Position numbers and translations under genes: made by a program. A stretch of 64,000 nucleotides of DNA, from positions 62,001 to 126,000 of the forward strand of contig NZ_CP026530.1 of the NCBI RefSeq assembly GCF_004006315.1, read 5' to 3'. The notes beneath the pieces were generated by a model. It did no database searches. It was given only the letters and a program-made list of their open reading frames with translations, and was not told where the DNA came from. Below are positions 30,827-38,356 of this stretch, one piece after another; positions within the stretch are counted from its first letter, which is position 1; every line of letters starts with the position of its first letter. The DNA comes from Nautilia sp. PV-1 (GTDB lineage: Bacteria; Campylobacterota; Campylobacteria; Campylobacterales; Nautiliaceae).

Positions 30827-31942
30827 ATGGAAATTAAAACACCCGCATATGTTATAGAAGAAAACCTGCTTGAAAAAAACCTTAAAATTCTTGACAGGGT
30901 GCAAAAAGAAGCCAATGCCAAAATTCTTGTGGCTTTAAAAGGTTACGCTACTTGGTCCACTTTTGATTTGCTTGAAAAATATCTCAGTGGAGCTACCGCA
31001 AGCGGTTTATGGGAAGCGAAACTTGCCAATATGAAACCATGGGAAGTGCATACATACTGTCCGGCATTTAAAGAAAGCGAAATTGACGAAGTGGCTGATA
31101 TTTCACATACTGTGGTATTTAACAGTTTTAATCAGCTTGAAAGATTTGAAGACAGGGTAAAAGAAAAATCTTTAATAGGACTTAGGGTAAATCCCGGAGT
31201 GTCAAGTTCTCCGGTACCGTTATACGATCCCTGCGCTCCGTTTAGCCGTCTTGGTGTTCCAAAAGCCAATTTCAAAGCAGATAAACTTAAAAACGTAAGC
31301 GGGCTGCATTTTCATGCGCTTTGCGAACAGTTGGACACGGCGCTGGAAAAAACTCTGGAAGGGTTTGAAAAGCTTTACGGAGAGTATCTTAAAGACATGC
31401 AGTGGGTGAATTTCGGCGGAGGGCATCATATTACGAGAGAAGGATACGATGTCGATCATCTGATAGAAATGATAAAAGAATTCAGAAACAGATATCCGAA
31501 TATAAAAGACGTTTATTTAGAACCTGGCGAAGCGGTGGGGCTTAACGCCGGATATCTGATGGCGGAGGTGCTCGATATTATTGACAACGGGATGAAAATA
31601 GCCATACTCGATACATCTGCCGAGGCTCATATGCCAGATGTATTAGCCATGCCTTACAGACCTGTAGTAAGGGGAGCGGGAGAGCCTAATGAGAAAAAAT
31701 ACACTTACAGACTCGGGGGAGTTACATGTCTTGCCGGGGACGTCATAGGGGATTACAGTTTCGATGAGCCTTTACAGATAGGAGATAAAATTATATTTGA
31801 AGATATGGCAATTTATACAATGGTTAAAAATACGGCGTTTAACGGTATAAAACTTCCTGATATAATTATAAAAAGAAAAGACGGATCAGTTTATAAAGCA
31901 AGAGAATTTCATTATGAGGATTTTAAAAACCGTTTAAGTTAA
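30827..31942 (+). CDS. nspC: Carboxynorspermidine/carboxyspermidine decarboxylase
   Basis: A PLP fold-III decarboxylase that makes spermidine (or norspermidine) from the carboxy form; Campylobacterota use this route. The 371 residues show the PLP lysine segment ILVALKGYATWS near residue 28, HFHALCEQ near 163, NFGGGHHIT near 195, LEPGEAVG near 228 and CLAGDVIGDYSF near 302. The start is the ATG at 30827 with AAAAGG. Its last 20 bases overlap the convergent EIIC-EAL gene. Confidence 0.93.
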   Translation: MEIKTPAYVIEENLLEKNLKILDRVQKEANAKILVALKGYATWSTFDLLEKYLSGATASGLWEAKLANMKPWEVHTYCPAFKESEIDEVADISHTVVFNSFNQLERFEDRVKEKSLIGLRVNPGVSSSPVPLYDPCAPFSRLGVPKANFKADKLKNVSGLHFHALCEQLDTALEKTLEGFEKLYGEYLKDMQWVNFGGGHHITREGYDVDHLIEMIKEFRNRYPNIKDVYLEPGEAVGLNAGYLMAEVLDIIDNGMKIAILDTSAEAHMPDVLAMPYRPVVRGAGEPNEKKYTYRLGGVTCLAGDVIGDYSFDEPLQIGDKIIFEDMAIYTMVKNTAFNGIKLPDIIIKRKDGSVYKAREFHYEDFKNRLS

Positions 31943-33902
31943 AGTTCTCGCTGAATTCTTTTACTTTTCTAAACGGTATGGCAGGAGAGAATATATATCC
32001 CTGTATATAGTCTATTCCCATTTCTTGTAATAAATTTAACTGTGATTTTTTTTCCACCCCTTCCGCCACTACTTTTATATTTAAATCTTTACAGAGGTTT
32101 ATTGTGTTTTTACAGACCAAATAGCCTTTTTTGTCTTCTATTTCGTCAATGAGGGATTTGTCCAGTTTCAGCTCTTCTATTGTATATTTAATAAGCGTTT
32201 CGAGAGATGAATAGCCTACTCCAAAGTCGTCTACTGAGATAGGGAAATTTTTGCTTTTGAGTTTTTGAATGTTTTTTTGCGCATCTTTATTTATAAAACT
32301 TCTTTCAATAATTTCAAACATTATATTTTCATTTTCGAATATTGATATGATTTTTTCCATAGCATCGCTGCTTTTTAACGTATCTGGATGGAGATTAACG
32401 CTTATTTGAGGGTAAAAATTTTCATTCTTCCATTTCTGCAGGTCTTTTTTTACTTCTTTGCACACCCAGACGTCTATAATGGGAGCCAGTCCAGATTTTT
32501 CTATGATATCCAAAAAGAAAGGGCCTTTTATCTGACCGTTGTCGTTGTATCTTATAAGCGCTTCGTATTTTAACGCTTTATTGTTTTTAATGTCTATTTT
32601 CGGCTGGTAATAGATTAATAAATTGTCCTGGTTTAAATTGTTTATAAGTTCGTTTAATTTTGTATTCGCCTCTATTACTTCCTGATTTGCCAAAAAAGCT
32701 TTAATGTCTTTTTTAGCTCTGATTTCTTCTTCAATTTCCAGGTTTGTCTGAAGTATGTGTTTTTTGTTTTCGAGTGACTGTATTTTGAAATATTTTTTAA
32801 TGAAATACGAATATACGGCCGTATCTACAGCCAGTAAGAATATTTGAAATAAAGGTATGGAAAATGAATTGCTTTTAAGAAAACCGTCAAATAAAATAGG
32901 AGTGGACCAGACTACGTGGTAAGAGGTAAAATGTACAGGCACCGTATGTACAAATATATATGCGGCTGCAAGATTAAAAAGAGGCAGCAGCACAAACGGC
33001 AGAAACAGAAATCTGTTAAATACAACGATTAAGAAAATCAGAATATCGTTTATATTAAATATCACGAAAGGGGACGCTATTTTGGCTACCGTTTTAACGG
33101 TAGAGTTTTTAGCGTTAATTAAAATAGCAATAAGAAGACTGGCGCCTATTCCGGCTCCTCCGATATTGATAAAAATCCTGTGAAATTCTCCGTAGGTAAG
33201 ATTTGGAAACATATGTTTAAAAAGTATTTCTTTTCCGAAAAGTGCATTTACCATATGTTCCCCGTGTATTCCGAAAAACCAGAAAAGCTGTACGAAAAAA
33301 TCTCTTATTGCGAGAATTACAATATCCGGAAGATTGAGTTTTAAAGGATTGTATTTATCGATAATTATGTCCATAACCGCGTCTATGGCTATATATGCCG
33401 CCATAGCCGCAATGTATGCAGCAAAAAATACGAAGATATAATTAAAAAATCTGTATATATGATAGTTTCCGTCTGTTACGTTTATATGCAGTGAAAATTT
33501 TGGGTAAAGTATTTTTAAAAAGTATGTACTTACAATCGGTGCAAAAATCGTAGCAGCCGTAAAACCGTACGGCAAAACCAGTTTTGAGTGAGGGTGCTCA
33601 TATATCAGAATGGACAGAAATGTAACCATTGAAAGAATAATGGCTATTATTTCGGAAACTTTTATCCTTTTCGCCACAAAAAATGCAATTGACACTATAG
33701 CTACGAGAGAAGTGAATGAAAGAACGGATCTTTCAAAACGGAAAACTATATCCGTAGGTATAATGTTTATGTGAAAGTATGATACGAAAATATTAAAAAG
33801 AGCAAGAAAAGCGCTAAAAATAATAAAAGGTATTACAGCTATAAAAGCCTCTTGAAGAGTTATAATAAATGCAATGATTTTTTTATTCAAAAAAAATTTC
33901 AA
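31923..33902 (-). CDS. PTS EIIC-like membrane domain fused to an EAL c-di-GMP phosphodiesterase (copy 2 of tandem)
   Basis: A 659-residue protein. Residues 1-375 form a polytopic domain of the lactose/cellobiose EIIC fold: PYGFTAA (111-117), GIHGEH with His213, the loop INIGGAGIGASLL, and FVIFNIND (279-286) before a second helix bundle. The acidic residue of the family's NEP motif is Asp286 here. A helical linker precedes an EAL domain with EAL at 448-450, the SVNLHPDT asparagine, EIIERS, VDDFG, KLDKS, VAEGVE and QGY, so it should cleave c-di-GMP. No EIIA or EIIB gene is nearby. A sensory role for the EIIC part is inferred. Start codon TTG at 33902. Confidence 0.88.
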   Translation of the reverse strand: MKFFLNKKIIAFIITLQEAFIAVIPFIIFSAFLALFNIFVSYFHINIIPTDIVFRFERSVLSFTSLVAIVSIAFFVAKRIKVSEIIAIILSMVTFLSILIYEHPHSKLVLPYGFTAATIFAPIVSTYFLKILYPKFSLHINVTDGNYHIYRFFNYIFVFFAAYIAAMAAYIAIDAVMDIIIDKYNPLKLNLPDIVILAIRDFFVQLFWFFGIHGEHMVNALFGKEILFKHMFPNLTYGEFHRIFINIGGAGIGASLLIAILINAKNSTVKTVAKIASPFVIFNINDILIFLIVVFNRFLFLPFVLLPLFNLAAAYIFVHTVPVHFTSYHVVWSTPILFDGFLKSNSFSIPLFQIFLLAVDTAVYSYFIKKYFKIQSLENKKHILQTNLEIEEEIRAKKDIKAFLANQEVIEANTKLNELINNLNQDNLLIYYQPKIDIKNNKALKYEALIRYNDNGQIKGPFFLDIIEKSGLAPIIDVWVCKEVKKDLQKWKNENFYPQISVNLHPDTLKSSDAMEKIISIFENENIMFEIIERSFINKDAQKNIQKLKSKNFPISVDDFGVGYSSLETLIKYTIEELKLDKSLIDEIEDKKGYLVCKNTINLCKDLNIKVVAEGVEKKSQLNLLQEMGIDYIQGYIFSPAIPFRKVKEFSENFNLNGF

Positions 33903-33954
33903 GTCCCGCCTTTTTTAAATTTTTGGAATTATATCAGATGTTTTGTGTCTAAAT

Positions 33955-36000
33955 TTAAACACTGAACGACTCTGCATACCGTTTGACCTTGTTAAAAGGT
34001 ATTGCAGGAGAAAAGTAATATCCCTGTACCAGATCGACATCTATAAATTTTACGCTGTTAAACTGCTGTTTGGTTTCAACTCCTTCTGCGACTACCGTGC
34101 ATTCCAGATCGTGACACAGACTTACTATATGTTTACAAACAACGTAGCCTTTGTGCGTGTCTATTATATCAATCAGGGATTTGTCGATTTTTAACTCATA
34201 AATATTTAATTTTGTAATTACCTCCAGGCTCGAATATCCTATGCCGTAATCGTCTATGGCAATTTTGAAGCCGTGTTTTTGAAGGTTTTTAATGTTTTGT
34301 TCGGCATTTTTACCGTAAAGAAAGCTTCTTTCAATTATTTCAAACACCACTTTTTTATCTTTAAAAATCTGAATTATTTTTTCAACAGCATCTTTGCTGC
34401 TGAGGGTGTCCGGATGAAGGTTAACGCTTATTTCGGGGTAAAAACTTTCATTTTGCCATTTTTCAATATCTTTTTTTACTTCTTTGCACACCCATATGTC
34501 TATAATAGGAGCCAGTCCCGCTTCTTCGATTATAGGCAGAAATGAGGGGCCGGTTATTTTGCCGTTGTCGTTATATCTTATTAACGCTTCGAATTTATTG
34601 CATTTGTTGTGTTTAATGTCTATTTTTGGCTGATAATATATTTTTAAATTATGTTTATTGAGTGAACTGATTGTCTCATCCAGTTTTGCCTGTGCGGCTA
34701 TTAGCTGTTTTTGGGCTTTAAAAGCGTATACACCTTCTTTTGATTTTATTTCTTCCGAAATATCGAGGTTGTGCTGAAGGATTTCTTTATGGGACGAATA
34801 TGATTTGGAGTTTACGAATTTTTTGGTGAAATAAATATAAACGGAAGTATCTATAACGAGCAAAAACAGCTGCAGAGCCGTGACCCATAAATTGCCTCCG
34901 GTTTTTAAATACGTATCTATAAATACGGGTGTCGTCCACGCAACATAATAATCGGTAAAATTTATATGTACGAAATGTAAAAAAGAATAGGCTATTACGA
35001 TATTTAAAATCGGAAGGAATACAAAAGGTATTAAAAAGAATCTGTTTAAAACGATTACGGAATATATCAGCAGGGTGTTAATGTTAAAAAACACAAAAGG
35101 AGTCGAAATTTTTGTTATGTACATTAAAGCTTTTTCTTTAAAATAGATCCAAAAAGAGATCAGCATACCGAGTCCTACACCGGCTCCTCCTATAAGAACG
35201 AACATTCTGTTGAATTCTCCAAACGTAAGGTTCGGGAAAGCTTCTTTAAAAAGTATGGCCTTTCCGAAAAGACCGTTTACGGTGTGGCTGCCGTGTATTC
35301 CGACAAACCACAGTATCTGTACCAGAAAGTCTCTAATTATCAGGGTTAATATATCAGGAATGTTTAATTTCAAAGGATTGAAGTTATGTAAGAAGTAACT
35401 GACTATCACTGCAAAGAATATATATAAATTAACGGCTGCAATATAGGCGGCAAAAAATACAAATAGATAATTAAAAAGTTTATAAATGTGATAATTCCCG
35501 TCTTCTATATTGATATTTAAGGTTAGTTTCGGATAAAACAGTTTCAAAAGGTAGGTTGAGAGCACCGGGGATATCAGCGTGGCCGGGGTAAAGCCGTAAG
35601 GAAGAACAATGGGGATAGATATGTCGTCTATAAGTTTAATTGTGGAGGTATCACCCTGGATATTGAAAATATATATTGACGAATTTTCTATAAGTACGAG
35701 TGTGACAAATACGCTGACGGATAAAATAACGGCGATTATCTGTGAAACTTTTAACCTCTGTGCAAAAAAATAGGATATTGCTATTACAGATACGATAGAT
35801 GAAAACGACTGAAGTATTTTTGAAAGATACAGAATGTTTTTTTGGGAAATAAAAAAAAGATCCGTATTAAAATAAAGCAAGAAAGAAAACAGCAGGGTAA
35901 TAACCGACGTTAACAGAAAAAAAGGAACAATTGCCGTAAATGCTTCTTGTAATGTAATAATAAAAAGCAATATTTTTTTATTTTTTATAATTTCGTTCAA
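33955..36000 (-). CDS. PTS EIIC-like membrane domain fused to an EAL c-di-GMP phosphodiesterase (copy 1 of tandem)
   Basis: A 681-residue paralogue of the next gene, 52 bases upstream of it. It has the same EIIC-type domain (PYGFTPA at 134-140, GIHGSH with His236, GGAGVGLG, FFNINT) followed by an EAL domain with EAL at 471-473, SVNLHPDT, EIIERS, IDDYG, KIDKS and VAEGVE, all catalytic positions intact. The NEP glutamate position is Thr309. A loop around residues 104-130 is about 20 residues longer than in the partner. The TTG at 36000 is chosen because AAGAAGG precedes it and it aligns with the partner's start; an ATG 20 codons upstream (36060) has no ribosome binding site. Confidence 0.87.
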   Translation of the reverse strand: MNEIIKNKKILLFIITLQEAFTAIVPFFLLTSVITLLFSFLLYFNTDLFFISQKNILYLSKILQSFSSIVSVIAISYFFAQRLKVSQIIAVILSVSVFVTLVLIENSSIYIFNIQGDTSTIKLIDDISIPIVLPYGFTPATLISPVLSTYLLKLFYPKLTLNINIEDGNYHIYKLFNYLFVFFAAYIAAVNLYIFFAVIVSYFLHNFNPLKLNIPDILTLIIRDFLVQILWFVGIHGSHTVNGLFGKAILFKEAFPNLTFGEFNRMFVLIGGAGVGLGMLISFWIYFKEKALMYITKISTPFVFFNINTLLIYSVIVLNRFFLIPFVFLPILNIVIAYSFLHFVHINFTDYYVAWTTPVFIDTYLKTGGNLWVTALQLFLLVIDTSVYIYFTKKFVNSKSYSSHKEILQHNLDISEEIKSKEGVYAFKAQKQLIAAQAKLDETISSLNKHNLKIYYQPKIDIKHNKCNKFEALIRYNDNGKITGPSFLPIIEEAGLAPIIDIWVCKEVKKDIEKWQNESFYPEISVNLHPDTLSSKDAVEKIIQIFKDKKVVFEIIERSFLYGKNAEQNIKNLQKHGFKIAIDDYGIGYSSLEVITKLNIYELKIDKSLIDIIDTHKGYVVCKHIVSLCHDLECTVVAEGVETKQQFNSVKFIDVDLVQGYYFSPAIPFNKVKRYAESFSV

Positions 36001-36142
36001 AAAAGGCCTTCTTTGAAAAGAGATACTGCTTATATACATATTATCAAATAAAAGTGACATAAAAGTGAAAAAACATATTAATGTATATGCAGTTTGTTAC
36101 GGGTGTGTAAATTCGTTTAATAATGCATAATTTCATCTTTGG

Positions 36143-36172: not shown

Positions 36173-38356
36173 TTGGCAAAAAAACTTATAATTGTCGAAT
36201 CACCGGCAAAAGCAAAAACGATTAAAAATTTTTTGGGTAAAGATTATGAAGTAGTGGCGAGCAAAGGGCACATAAGAGATTTGCCTAAAACTTCTTTCGG
36301 GATTAAGATTGAAGACGATTCTTTTATACCTCAGTACAGAGTGACAAAAGACCATCAGGCGATTGCCAAAGAACTGAAAGAAAAAGCAAAAAAAGCCGAC
36401 ACGGTTTATATAGCGACGGATGAGGACAGGGAAGGAGAGGCTATCGGCTATCATATTGCCCACGTAATAGGTAAAAAGCCGGAAGAACTTCCAAGAATAG
36501 TGTTTCATGAAATTACCAAAACAGCTATAAAAAAAGCCCTTGAAAACCCGAGAACCATTGATTTGAACAGGGTAAACGCCCAGCAGGCCAGAAGACTTCT
36601 TGACAGAATAGTGGGATATAAACTTTCCCCTCTTCTCAATAAAAAAATTCAAAAGGGTCTTAGTGCAGGTAGGGTTCAAAGTGCAGCCCTTAAACTCGTA
36701 GTGGACCGTGAAAGGGAAATTAAGGCCTTTAAACCTCAGGAATATTGGAGTATTGAAGGGATTTTTAAAAAAATAGAGGGTTCTTTAATTAAATATAACG
36801 GTAAAAAACTTGATAAATTCGATATTAAAACCAAAGACGAAGCTCATAAAATAGTAGACGAGTTAAAACCTCTCGAATATACCGTAAGAGAAATAGAAAC
36901 CAAAACAACTACCGTAAAATCCCCGGCGCCGTTTATGACTTCGACACTTCAGCAGGTAGCCAGCAGCGAGCTCGGGTTCAGTCCGAGAAAAACAATGCAG
37001 ATTGCGCAGAAACTTTATGAAGGTGTTAAAACGCCTGTGGGTGAAACGGGTATTATTACATATATGAGAACGGACAGTCTTAACATTGCCAAAGAAGCTC
37101 AAAAAGCGGCATTGGAATTTATTAAACAAAATATAGGCGAAGAGTATGCCCAGCCTAAAACATACCATACGAAAAACCAGACCGCACAGGAAGCGCATGA
37201 AGCTATAAGACCTGTTGATGTAAGGCTGACGCCGGATGATCTTAAAAACTATTTAAAGCCTGACGAGCTTAAACTTTACACTCTGATTTTTAACAGATTT
37301 TTGGCAACCCAGATGAAAGACGCCAAATTTGAAACTCAGAATATTTACATATCAAACGATAAGGGCGAATTTAAAATAAGCGGAAGAAAACTGATATTTG
37401 ACGGATTTTATAAAGTATACGGAAAACCTAGCGCAAATACACTGCTTCCTGAATTTGAAAAAGGCGAGAAATTAAAACCCGAAGAGGTTAAAGCAACCCA
37501 GCATTTCACCAAACCGCCTGAAAGATATACCGAAGCCAGCCTTATTAAAAAACTGGAATCACTCGGAATCGGAAGACCTTCGACATACGCTCCTACGATT
37601 ACGCTTTTGCAAAACAGAAACTATGTTGAGGTAAAAGAGAAAAAACTCCATCCTACGGAAATAGCTTTCAGTGTAATTGAAACGCTTGAAAAACATTTTC
37701 CGGATATTGTGGACGCCAACTTTACGGCAAATATGGAAGAGATGCTTGACAGCGTAGCCGAAGCGAAAAAAGACTGGCAGGAGGTGTTAAAAGAATTTTA
37801 TAATCCGTTTATGGAGCTTGTAAACAAAGGATACAAAGAGATCCCTTCTCAGAAAATTGCAAAACCGATTGACGAAACGTGTCCTCTTTGCGGCTCTCCT
37901 CTTGTAATAAGAAAAGGAAGATTCGGCGAGTTTATTGCATGCAGCAGTTATCCTAAATGTAAATATACAAGGCCTCTCGAAGAAAAAGAAGAGAAAAAAG
38001 CCGATGTTAAATGTGACAAATGCGGTGCCGATATGGTTGTGAAAAGAGGTAAAAGCGGAGAATTCCTGGCGTGCAGCAATTATCCTGAGTGTAAAAACAC
38101 AAAACCTCTAAACGAACCTGAAATTTTAGACGATGTAAAGTGTCCGGAATGCGGAGGCGATATCGTAAAAAGAAAGTCAAGAAGAGGGGAATTTTACGGA
38201 TGTGCAAATTATCCTAAATGTACGTTTATTTCAAAATACAGACCGGTTAACAAACAGTGTCCGGAATGCGGATATCTGATGGCAAAAAGAACATACAGAA
38301 AAAAAGAGATTTACGAATGTATTAAATGTAAACATAGAGAAGACGCTGCAGATTAA
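36173..38356 (+). CDS. topA: DNA topoisomerase I
   Basis: Type IA enzyme that relaxes negative supercoils. The 727 residues hold the Toprim domain (LIIVESPAKAKTIKNFLG at the start, DEDREGEAIGYH near 85), the active-site tyrosine in GIITYMRTDSLNIA near 297, and four C-terminal zinc-ribbon-like units (CPLCGSPL...CSSYPKC, CDKCGAD...CSNYPEC, CPECGGD...CANYPKC, CPECGYL...CIKCK). The start is TTG; the ATG at 36168 is out of frame. Confidence 0.97.
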   Translation: MAKKLIIVESPAKAKTIKNFLGKDYEVVASKGHIRDLPKTSFGIKIEDDSFIPQYRVTKDHQAIAKELKEKAKKADTVYIATDEDREGEAIGYHIAHVIGKKPEELPRIVFHEITKTAIKKALENPRTIDLNRVNAQQARRLLDRIVGYKLSPLLNKKIQKGLSAGRVQSAALKLVVDREREIKAFKPQEYWSIEGIFKKIEGSLIKYNGKKLDKFDIKTKDEAHKIVDELKPLEYTVREIETKTTTVKSPAPFMTSTLQQVASSELGFSPRKTMQIAQKLYEGVKTPVGETGIITYMRTDSLNIAKEAQKAALEFIKQNIGEEYAQPKTYHTKNQTAQEAHEAIRPVDVRLTPDDLKNYLKPDELKLYTLIFNRFLATQMKDAKFETQNIYISNDKGEFKISGRKLIFDGFYKVYGKPSANTLLPEFEKGEKLKPEEVKATQHFTKPPERYTEASLIKKLESLGIGRPSTYAPTITLLQNRNYVEVKEKKLHPTEIAFSVIETLEKHFPDIVDANFTANMEEMLDSVAEAKKDWQEVLKEFYNPFMELVNKGYKEIPSQKIAKPIDETCPLCGSPLVIRKGRFGEFIACSSYPKCKYTRPLEEKEEKKADVKCDKCGADMVVKRGKSGEFLACSNYPECKNTKPLNEPEILDDVKCPECGGDIVKRKSRRGEFYGCANYPKCTFISKYRPVNKQCPECGYLMAKRTYRKKEIYECIKCKHREDAAD

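Follow-up and report, generated by a model that had tools for sequence, protein, structure and literature searches.

The genome of Nautilia sp. PV-1, a hot-vent bacterium, carries two adjacent genes, here called N1 and N2, each of which joins an EIIC membrane domain to an EAL domain. Their products are interpreted, with a probability of roughly 0.55, as membrane-bound c-di-GMP phosphodiesterases in which a former lactose/cellobiose-type EIIC, no longer competent for phosphorylation, would act as a ligand receptor and provide the input. The first-pass annotation had proposed that a sugar-transporter fold became the sensory input for c-di-GMP breakdown. This is the best-supported reading, based on the EIIC match, the lack of the PTS components searched for, and the loss of the residue corresponding to E334 of B. 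cereus ChbC; from these we infer the sensing itself.

Structure and location of the gene pair

The window, a stretch of 64,000 nucleotides, contains N1 (31923..33902, 659 aa, TTG start) and N2 (33955..36000) head to tail on the minus strand, with 52 bases between them and N2 upstream. The pair is flanked by a convergent nspC-like carboxynorspermidine decarboxylase gene (30827..31942, plus strand) and by the divergent topA (36173..38356, plus strand). The former was named from its sequence and from the nspC in the passages found of the N. profundicola genome paper (PMC2628731). topA shows 95% and 89% identity to its counterparts in two other Nautiliaceae genomes, G038 and G039, respectively. 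N1 and nspC share 20 bases at their 3' ends (window 31923-31942), and the same arrangement is seen in G038.

The longest ORF of N2 extends to an ATG at 36060 (701 aa). The start is probably the TTG at 36000 (681 aa), because the orthologue in G038 begins with TTG at the same residue. About half of the residues are identical between N1 and N2. N2 has a longer N-terminus and, in the alignment, ~27 additional residues spread over two loops. Its EIIC domain carries a ~20-aa loop insertion relative to N1. The linkers between EIIC and EAL are equal in length and align without a gap. Thus, the paralogues differ in loop length, as the first-pass annotation had noted; its statement that the linkers also differ in length is wrong. 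Its description of two tandem genes with EIIC and EAL domains and all catalytic positions was confirmed at this place and on this strand by profiles and alignment.

The EAL half

The EAL domains of N1 (aa 418-640; 31983..32651, minus strand) and N2 (aa 467-685 of the long ORF; 34006..34662, minus strand) matched the EAL profile with 196 and 186 bits, respectively. Both have the full set of ten catalytic positions that were checked, and so does every fusion aligned. Fold and structure matches of this half were EAL phosphodiesterases, including 4Q6J (1e-31 for N1), BifA, and MorA. The genome of Nautilia sp. PV-1 contains 15 EAL domains.

The EIIC half

The EIIC membrane domains of N1 (aa 1-387; 32742..33902, minus strand) and N2 (aa 30-425 of the long ORF; 34786..35973, minus strand) were detected with the PTS_EIIC and lacE profiles. 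The PTS_EIIC profile PF02378 gave 33.3 bits for N1, above the Pfam cut-off of 30.7, and 26.6 bits, just under it, for N2. The match covered positions 2-319 of 319, indicating EIIC homology across the whole domain. The lacE model TIGR00410 matched N1 at 3e-30 and N2 at 9e-26, both under the cut-off of the model itself; among EIIC models, this NCBI lactose/cellobiose model was the best fit. The only solved structure matched by the N1/N2 EIIC profile was ChbC of B. cereus (PDB 3QNQ), at 7e-20 and over nearly its whole length. The N-terminal halves therefore match EIIC by profile, as had been expected of them.

The EIIC half was predicted from an alignment of 14 sequences with a pLDDT of 82 and a pTM of 0.75. 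A fold search with this model gave seven matches below 0.001, all of them PTS EIIC proteins: ChbC came first (2.5e-10, for N1), and PtsG, V. cholerae IIC, and MalT were also found. The TM-scores were 0.40-0.60, with 0.42 for ChbC and the best value, 0.60, for a PtsG model. These modest scores may reflect the conformational state or an error of the model. The N-terminal half thus matches EIIC by fold as well. The full-length model had a pTM of 0.54 and a linker of low confidence. The loose superposition on ChbC and the low confidence of the linker count against the EIIC half as a receptor.

Substrate-site residues

N1 and N2 were aligned with ChbC, the other fusions, and the stand-alone EIICs described below. 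W245 and W382 of ChbC, which we take to line its pocket as stacking residues, and H250 are kept in all five Nautiliaceae copies, the histidine being His213 in N1 (33264..33266, minus strand) and His256 in N2 (35293..35295, minus strand). In ChbC, according to a paper on PtsG, the substrate is hydrogen-bonded by E334 and H250 (PMC8193941). The E334 position is replaced by Asp286 in N1 (33045..33047, minus strand) and by Thr329 in N2 (35074..35076, minus strand). The orthologues in G038 likewise have D and T, and the G039 copy has N. In contrast, E is found in all 13 comparison proteins, which are twelve fusions outside Nautiliaceae (one of them, from G341, broken) and ChbC, and in 3/3 stand-alone EIICs. 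The FGxP motif near this position is also altered in Nautiliaceae. Among the five Nautiliaceae copies, 135 of 379 EIIC positions are invariant.

The fold, both tryptophans, and the histidine are thus common to ChbC and N1/N2. The differences are the replacement of E334, the missing 11-residue loop after the histidine, the addition of EAL, and the partner proteins, which were not found in the genome. Loss of the E334 equivalent in both paralogues strengthens the reading of a repurposed transporter. On the other side, the replacement could weaken sugar binding itself, besides phosphorylation, which counts against a sugar receptor.

PTS components

The genome (1.79 Mb, one contig) is rated 100% complete. 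No match to HPr (PF00381), the EI N-domain (PF05524), PTS_IIB (PF02302), or PTS_EIIA_2 (PF00359), the one EIIA family covered, was found genome-wide; control genomes did give matches with the PTS-component profiles. N1 and N2 are the only EIIC matches in the genome. The absence of PTS partners, at first noted for the window, therefore extends to the whole genome for these four profiles, and a complete PTS elsewhere was not found. In the class Campylobacteria, HPr is present in 24 of 397 genomes, and in one of the 12 that bear EIIC.

Distribution and evolutionary history

EIIC matches were observed in 12 of 397 Campylobacteria genomes: Nautilia sp. PV-1 and G038 with a pair each, G039 with one fusion, five genomes of another family, G166, and three genomes with stand-alone EIICs. 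One of the five, G341, has an EIIC-EAL gene (L036:6116-8106) that is broken by stop codons and is apparently a pseudogene. In Nautiliaceae, 3 of 21 genomes have a match. The orthologues of N1 and N2 in G038 show 77% and 75% identity in unchanged gene order, and the fusions of G038 and G039 lie at the same locus with conserved flanks. The moaE-like gene of G039 is followed by a MoeA-like one on the opposite strand (L034:2331-3518) that is only 30% identical to that of the window, which suggests local rearrangement or replacement. In several relatives nspC and topA are adjacent, 31-139 bases apart, with no fusions between them; one of these genomes is incomplete and belongs to the genus of Nautilia sp. 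PV-1. A functional tie to nspC and norspermidine was considered from the adjacency, which looks incidental because these relatives have nspC beside topA without the fusions.

In the tree the single copy of G039 groups with N1 (96/97). On this grouping, the duplication is probably older than the split of the two genera, with the subsequent loss of one copy; a recent duplication specific to Nautilia is not supported. In the EIIC tree the short-loop fusions, namely those of Campylobacterota except G166 and those of Tritonibacter and Pseudoalteromonas, cluster with fair support (95/87). The Nautiliaceae stem branch is long. The short-loop subgroup (L034-L039, L049, L051) lacks ~11 loop residues after the position of ChbC H250.

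EIIC-EAL fusions were also found in records of Acetoanaerobium, C. difficile, Tritonibacter, Photobacterium, Pseudoalteromonas, and Vibrio, with a Pfam check on three. An oddity of Nautilia alone is therefore rejected: eight further Campylobacteria genomes have fusions, one of them broken, and so do Bacillota, Alphaproteobacteria, and Gammaproteobacteria. The fusions that were to be surveyed across Campylobacterota do occur there, but are not confined to it, being present in at least two other phyla. A tblastn search of plasmids with the EIIC half of N1 gave no match, and a scan of the genome collection gave one EAL relative only.

In three genomes the end of the stand-alone EIIC gene overlaps a gene for a GH95-type glycoside hydrolase (L041:4965-7764, L042:6893-10499, and L043:493-4178). 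HPr and EI are absent from these genomes, the histidine of the GIHG motif is replaced by N, and E334 is kept. These pairs may represent PTS-free sugar uptake.

Selection on the pair

Between Nautilia sp. PV-1 and G038, each gene had a dN of 0.15-0.20 in its EIIC as well as its EAL domain, and synonymous sites were saturated. N1 and N2 are therefore under purifying selection, although their rate of evolution exceeds that of each of the six neighbours tested (dN 0.035-0.13). The idea of decaying genes is not supported, given this selection and the retention of every catalytic residue. Fast evolution, together with absence from most relatives, implies a dispensable function, and this counts against the explanation as receptors.

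Possible function of the EIIC half

If the EIIC half is a receptor, a small ligand would enter the EIIC pocket between the kept tryptophans and the histidine; it would probably be a mono- or disaccharide. The EIIC fold is most likely dimeric, like ChbC. Entry of the ligand would not be followed by phosphorylation, as the missing PTS and the replacement of E334 suggest. Ligand-dependent movement of the EIIC core would then be relayed by the helical linker to the pair of EAL domains, in line with the architecture and with known EAL dimers. The complete catalytic residues suggest that c-di-GMP hydrolysis, and hence the level of c-di-GMP, would be altered; the effect could be activation or inhibition. 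N1 and N2 probably differ in ligand or in sensitivity, because their replacements of E334 (D and T) and their loops differ. It is conceivable, as a tentative proposal, that the pair arose by conversion of a transporter to a receptor in a PTS-free bacterium: the aromatic and histidine contacts for sugar binding would have been kept, the glutamate for phosphorylation-coupled transport lost, and two receptors of differing specificity formed.

The long stem branch, the loss of E334, and the altered neighbouring motif would also fit a former transporter that is a mere membrane anchor or that responds to a non-sugar signal, for instance temperature, ions, the state of the membrane, or a lipid-soluble compound. 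Sugar is a less obvious cue for a chemolithoautotroph of vents. This explanation is nevertheless doubtful, as the tryptophans and the histidine of the pocket are found in all copies and more than a third of the aligned EIIC positions are invariant. The preserved EIIC core, tryptophans, and histidine are likewise compatible with sugar passing through EIIC without phosphorylation, where passage or binding would set the EAL activity. The stand-alone EIICs beside GH95 genes, in genomes with neither HPr nor EI, suggest that PTS-free transport by EIIC may exist. Such a transporter-receptor is rather improbable for N1 and N2, since E334 and the adjoining FGxP motif are altered in Nautiliaceae and no sugar-use genes were found among the neighbours of the pair.

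In the PTS, EIIC itself is not phosphorylated, which counts against control of the enzyme by the PTS. A 2022 review lists PTS_EIIC among the rare domains of c-di-GMP proteins and terms it a phosphoreceiver, and it cites the control of PdeS by EIIAGlc in V. cholerae (PMC8846402). A role of the EIIC half as phosphoreceiver or working PTS permease, with the phosphorylation state of the PTS setting phosphodiesterase activity, is very improbable despite that usage, the V. cholerae case, and the HPr/EI protein of the related fusion genome G291: the loss of E334 together with the PTS components not found argues against phosphorylation-coupled transport and against a phosphoreceiver, which is rejected as EI, HPr, EIIB, and EIIA_2 were not found in the genome, and 11 of the 12 EIIC-bearing Campylobacteria have no HPr.

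Relation to known proteins

The EIIC-EAL architecture is already known and is not new. N1 and N2 fit the class, with N-terminal EIIC, C-terminal EAL, and about 650-700 aa, and they resemble the proteins of C. difficile (WP_003435700.1) and Tritonibacter (WP_005630632.1) in domain order, length, and EAL catalytic positions. As in N1 and N2, W245 is found in all compared PTS_EIIC-EAL proteins and H250 in most. The Nautiliaceae fusions differ from the others in the tandem pair, present in two genomes, and in the E334 position; in addition, the genome of Nautilia sp. PV-1 lacks the PTS components that were searched. In 2009, the genome paper on N. profundicola described EAL or GGDEF domains associated with carbohydrate-binding regions ('CelB domain') (PMC2628731), apparently the counterparts of N1 and N2 in the sister species. 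It does so in one sentence, and the passages found mention neither a missing PTS nor the tandem copies nor a changed active site. What appears to be new is that the searched PTS components are absent genome-wide and that the Nautiliaceae form has lost E334, along with the evolutionary history of the two genes. The V. cholerae EIIAGlc-PdeS system, like N1 and N2, links a PTS-type protein to a c-di-GMP phosphodiesterase. There, however, EIIA is a protein of its own whose action depends on its phosphorylation state, whereas in N1 and N2 the EIIC fold is inside the enzyme and the searched phosphorelay proteins are absent.

Earlier listings class the EIIC inputs of c-di-GMP enzymes as phosphoreceivers, and the literature search found no experimental study of any EIIC-EAL protein. 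Because no PTS was found and the EIIC active site is altered, a transporter fold serving as a receptor becomes directly testable in N1 and N2. The interpretation of their EIIC halves as receptors could give the first known signal for the EIIC-EAL class and, if true, would add to the few cases in which transporter and receptor functions are found in one fold.
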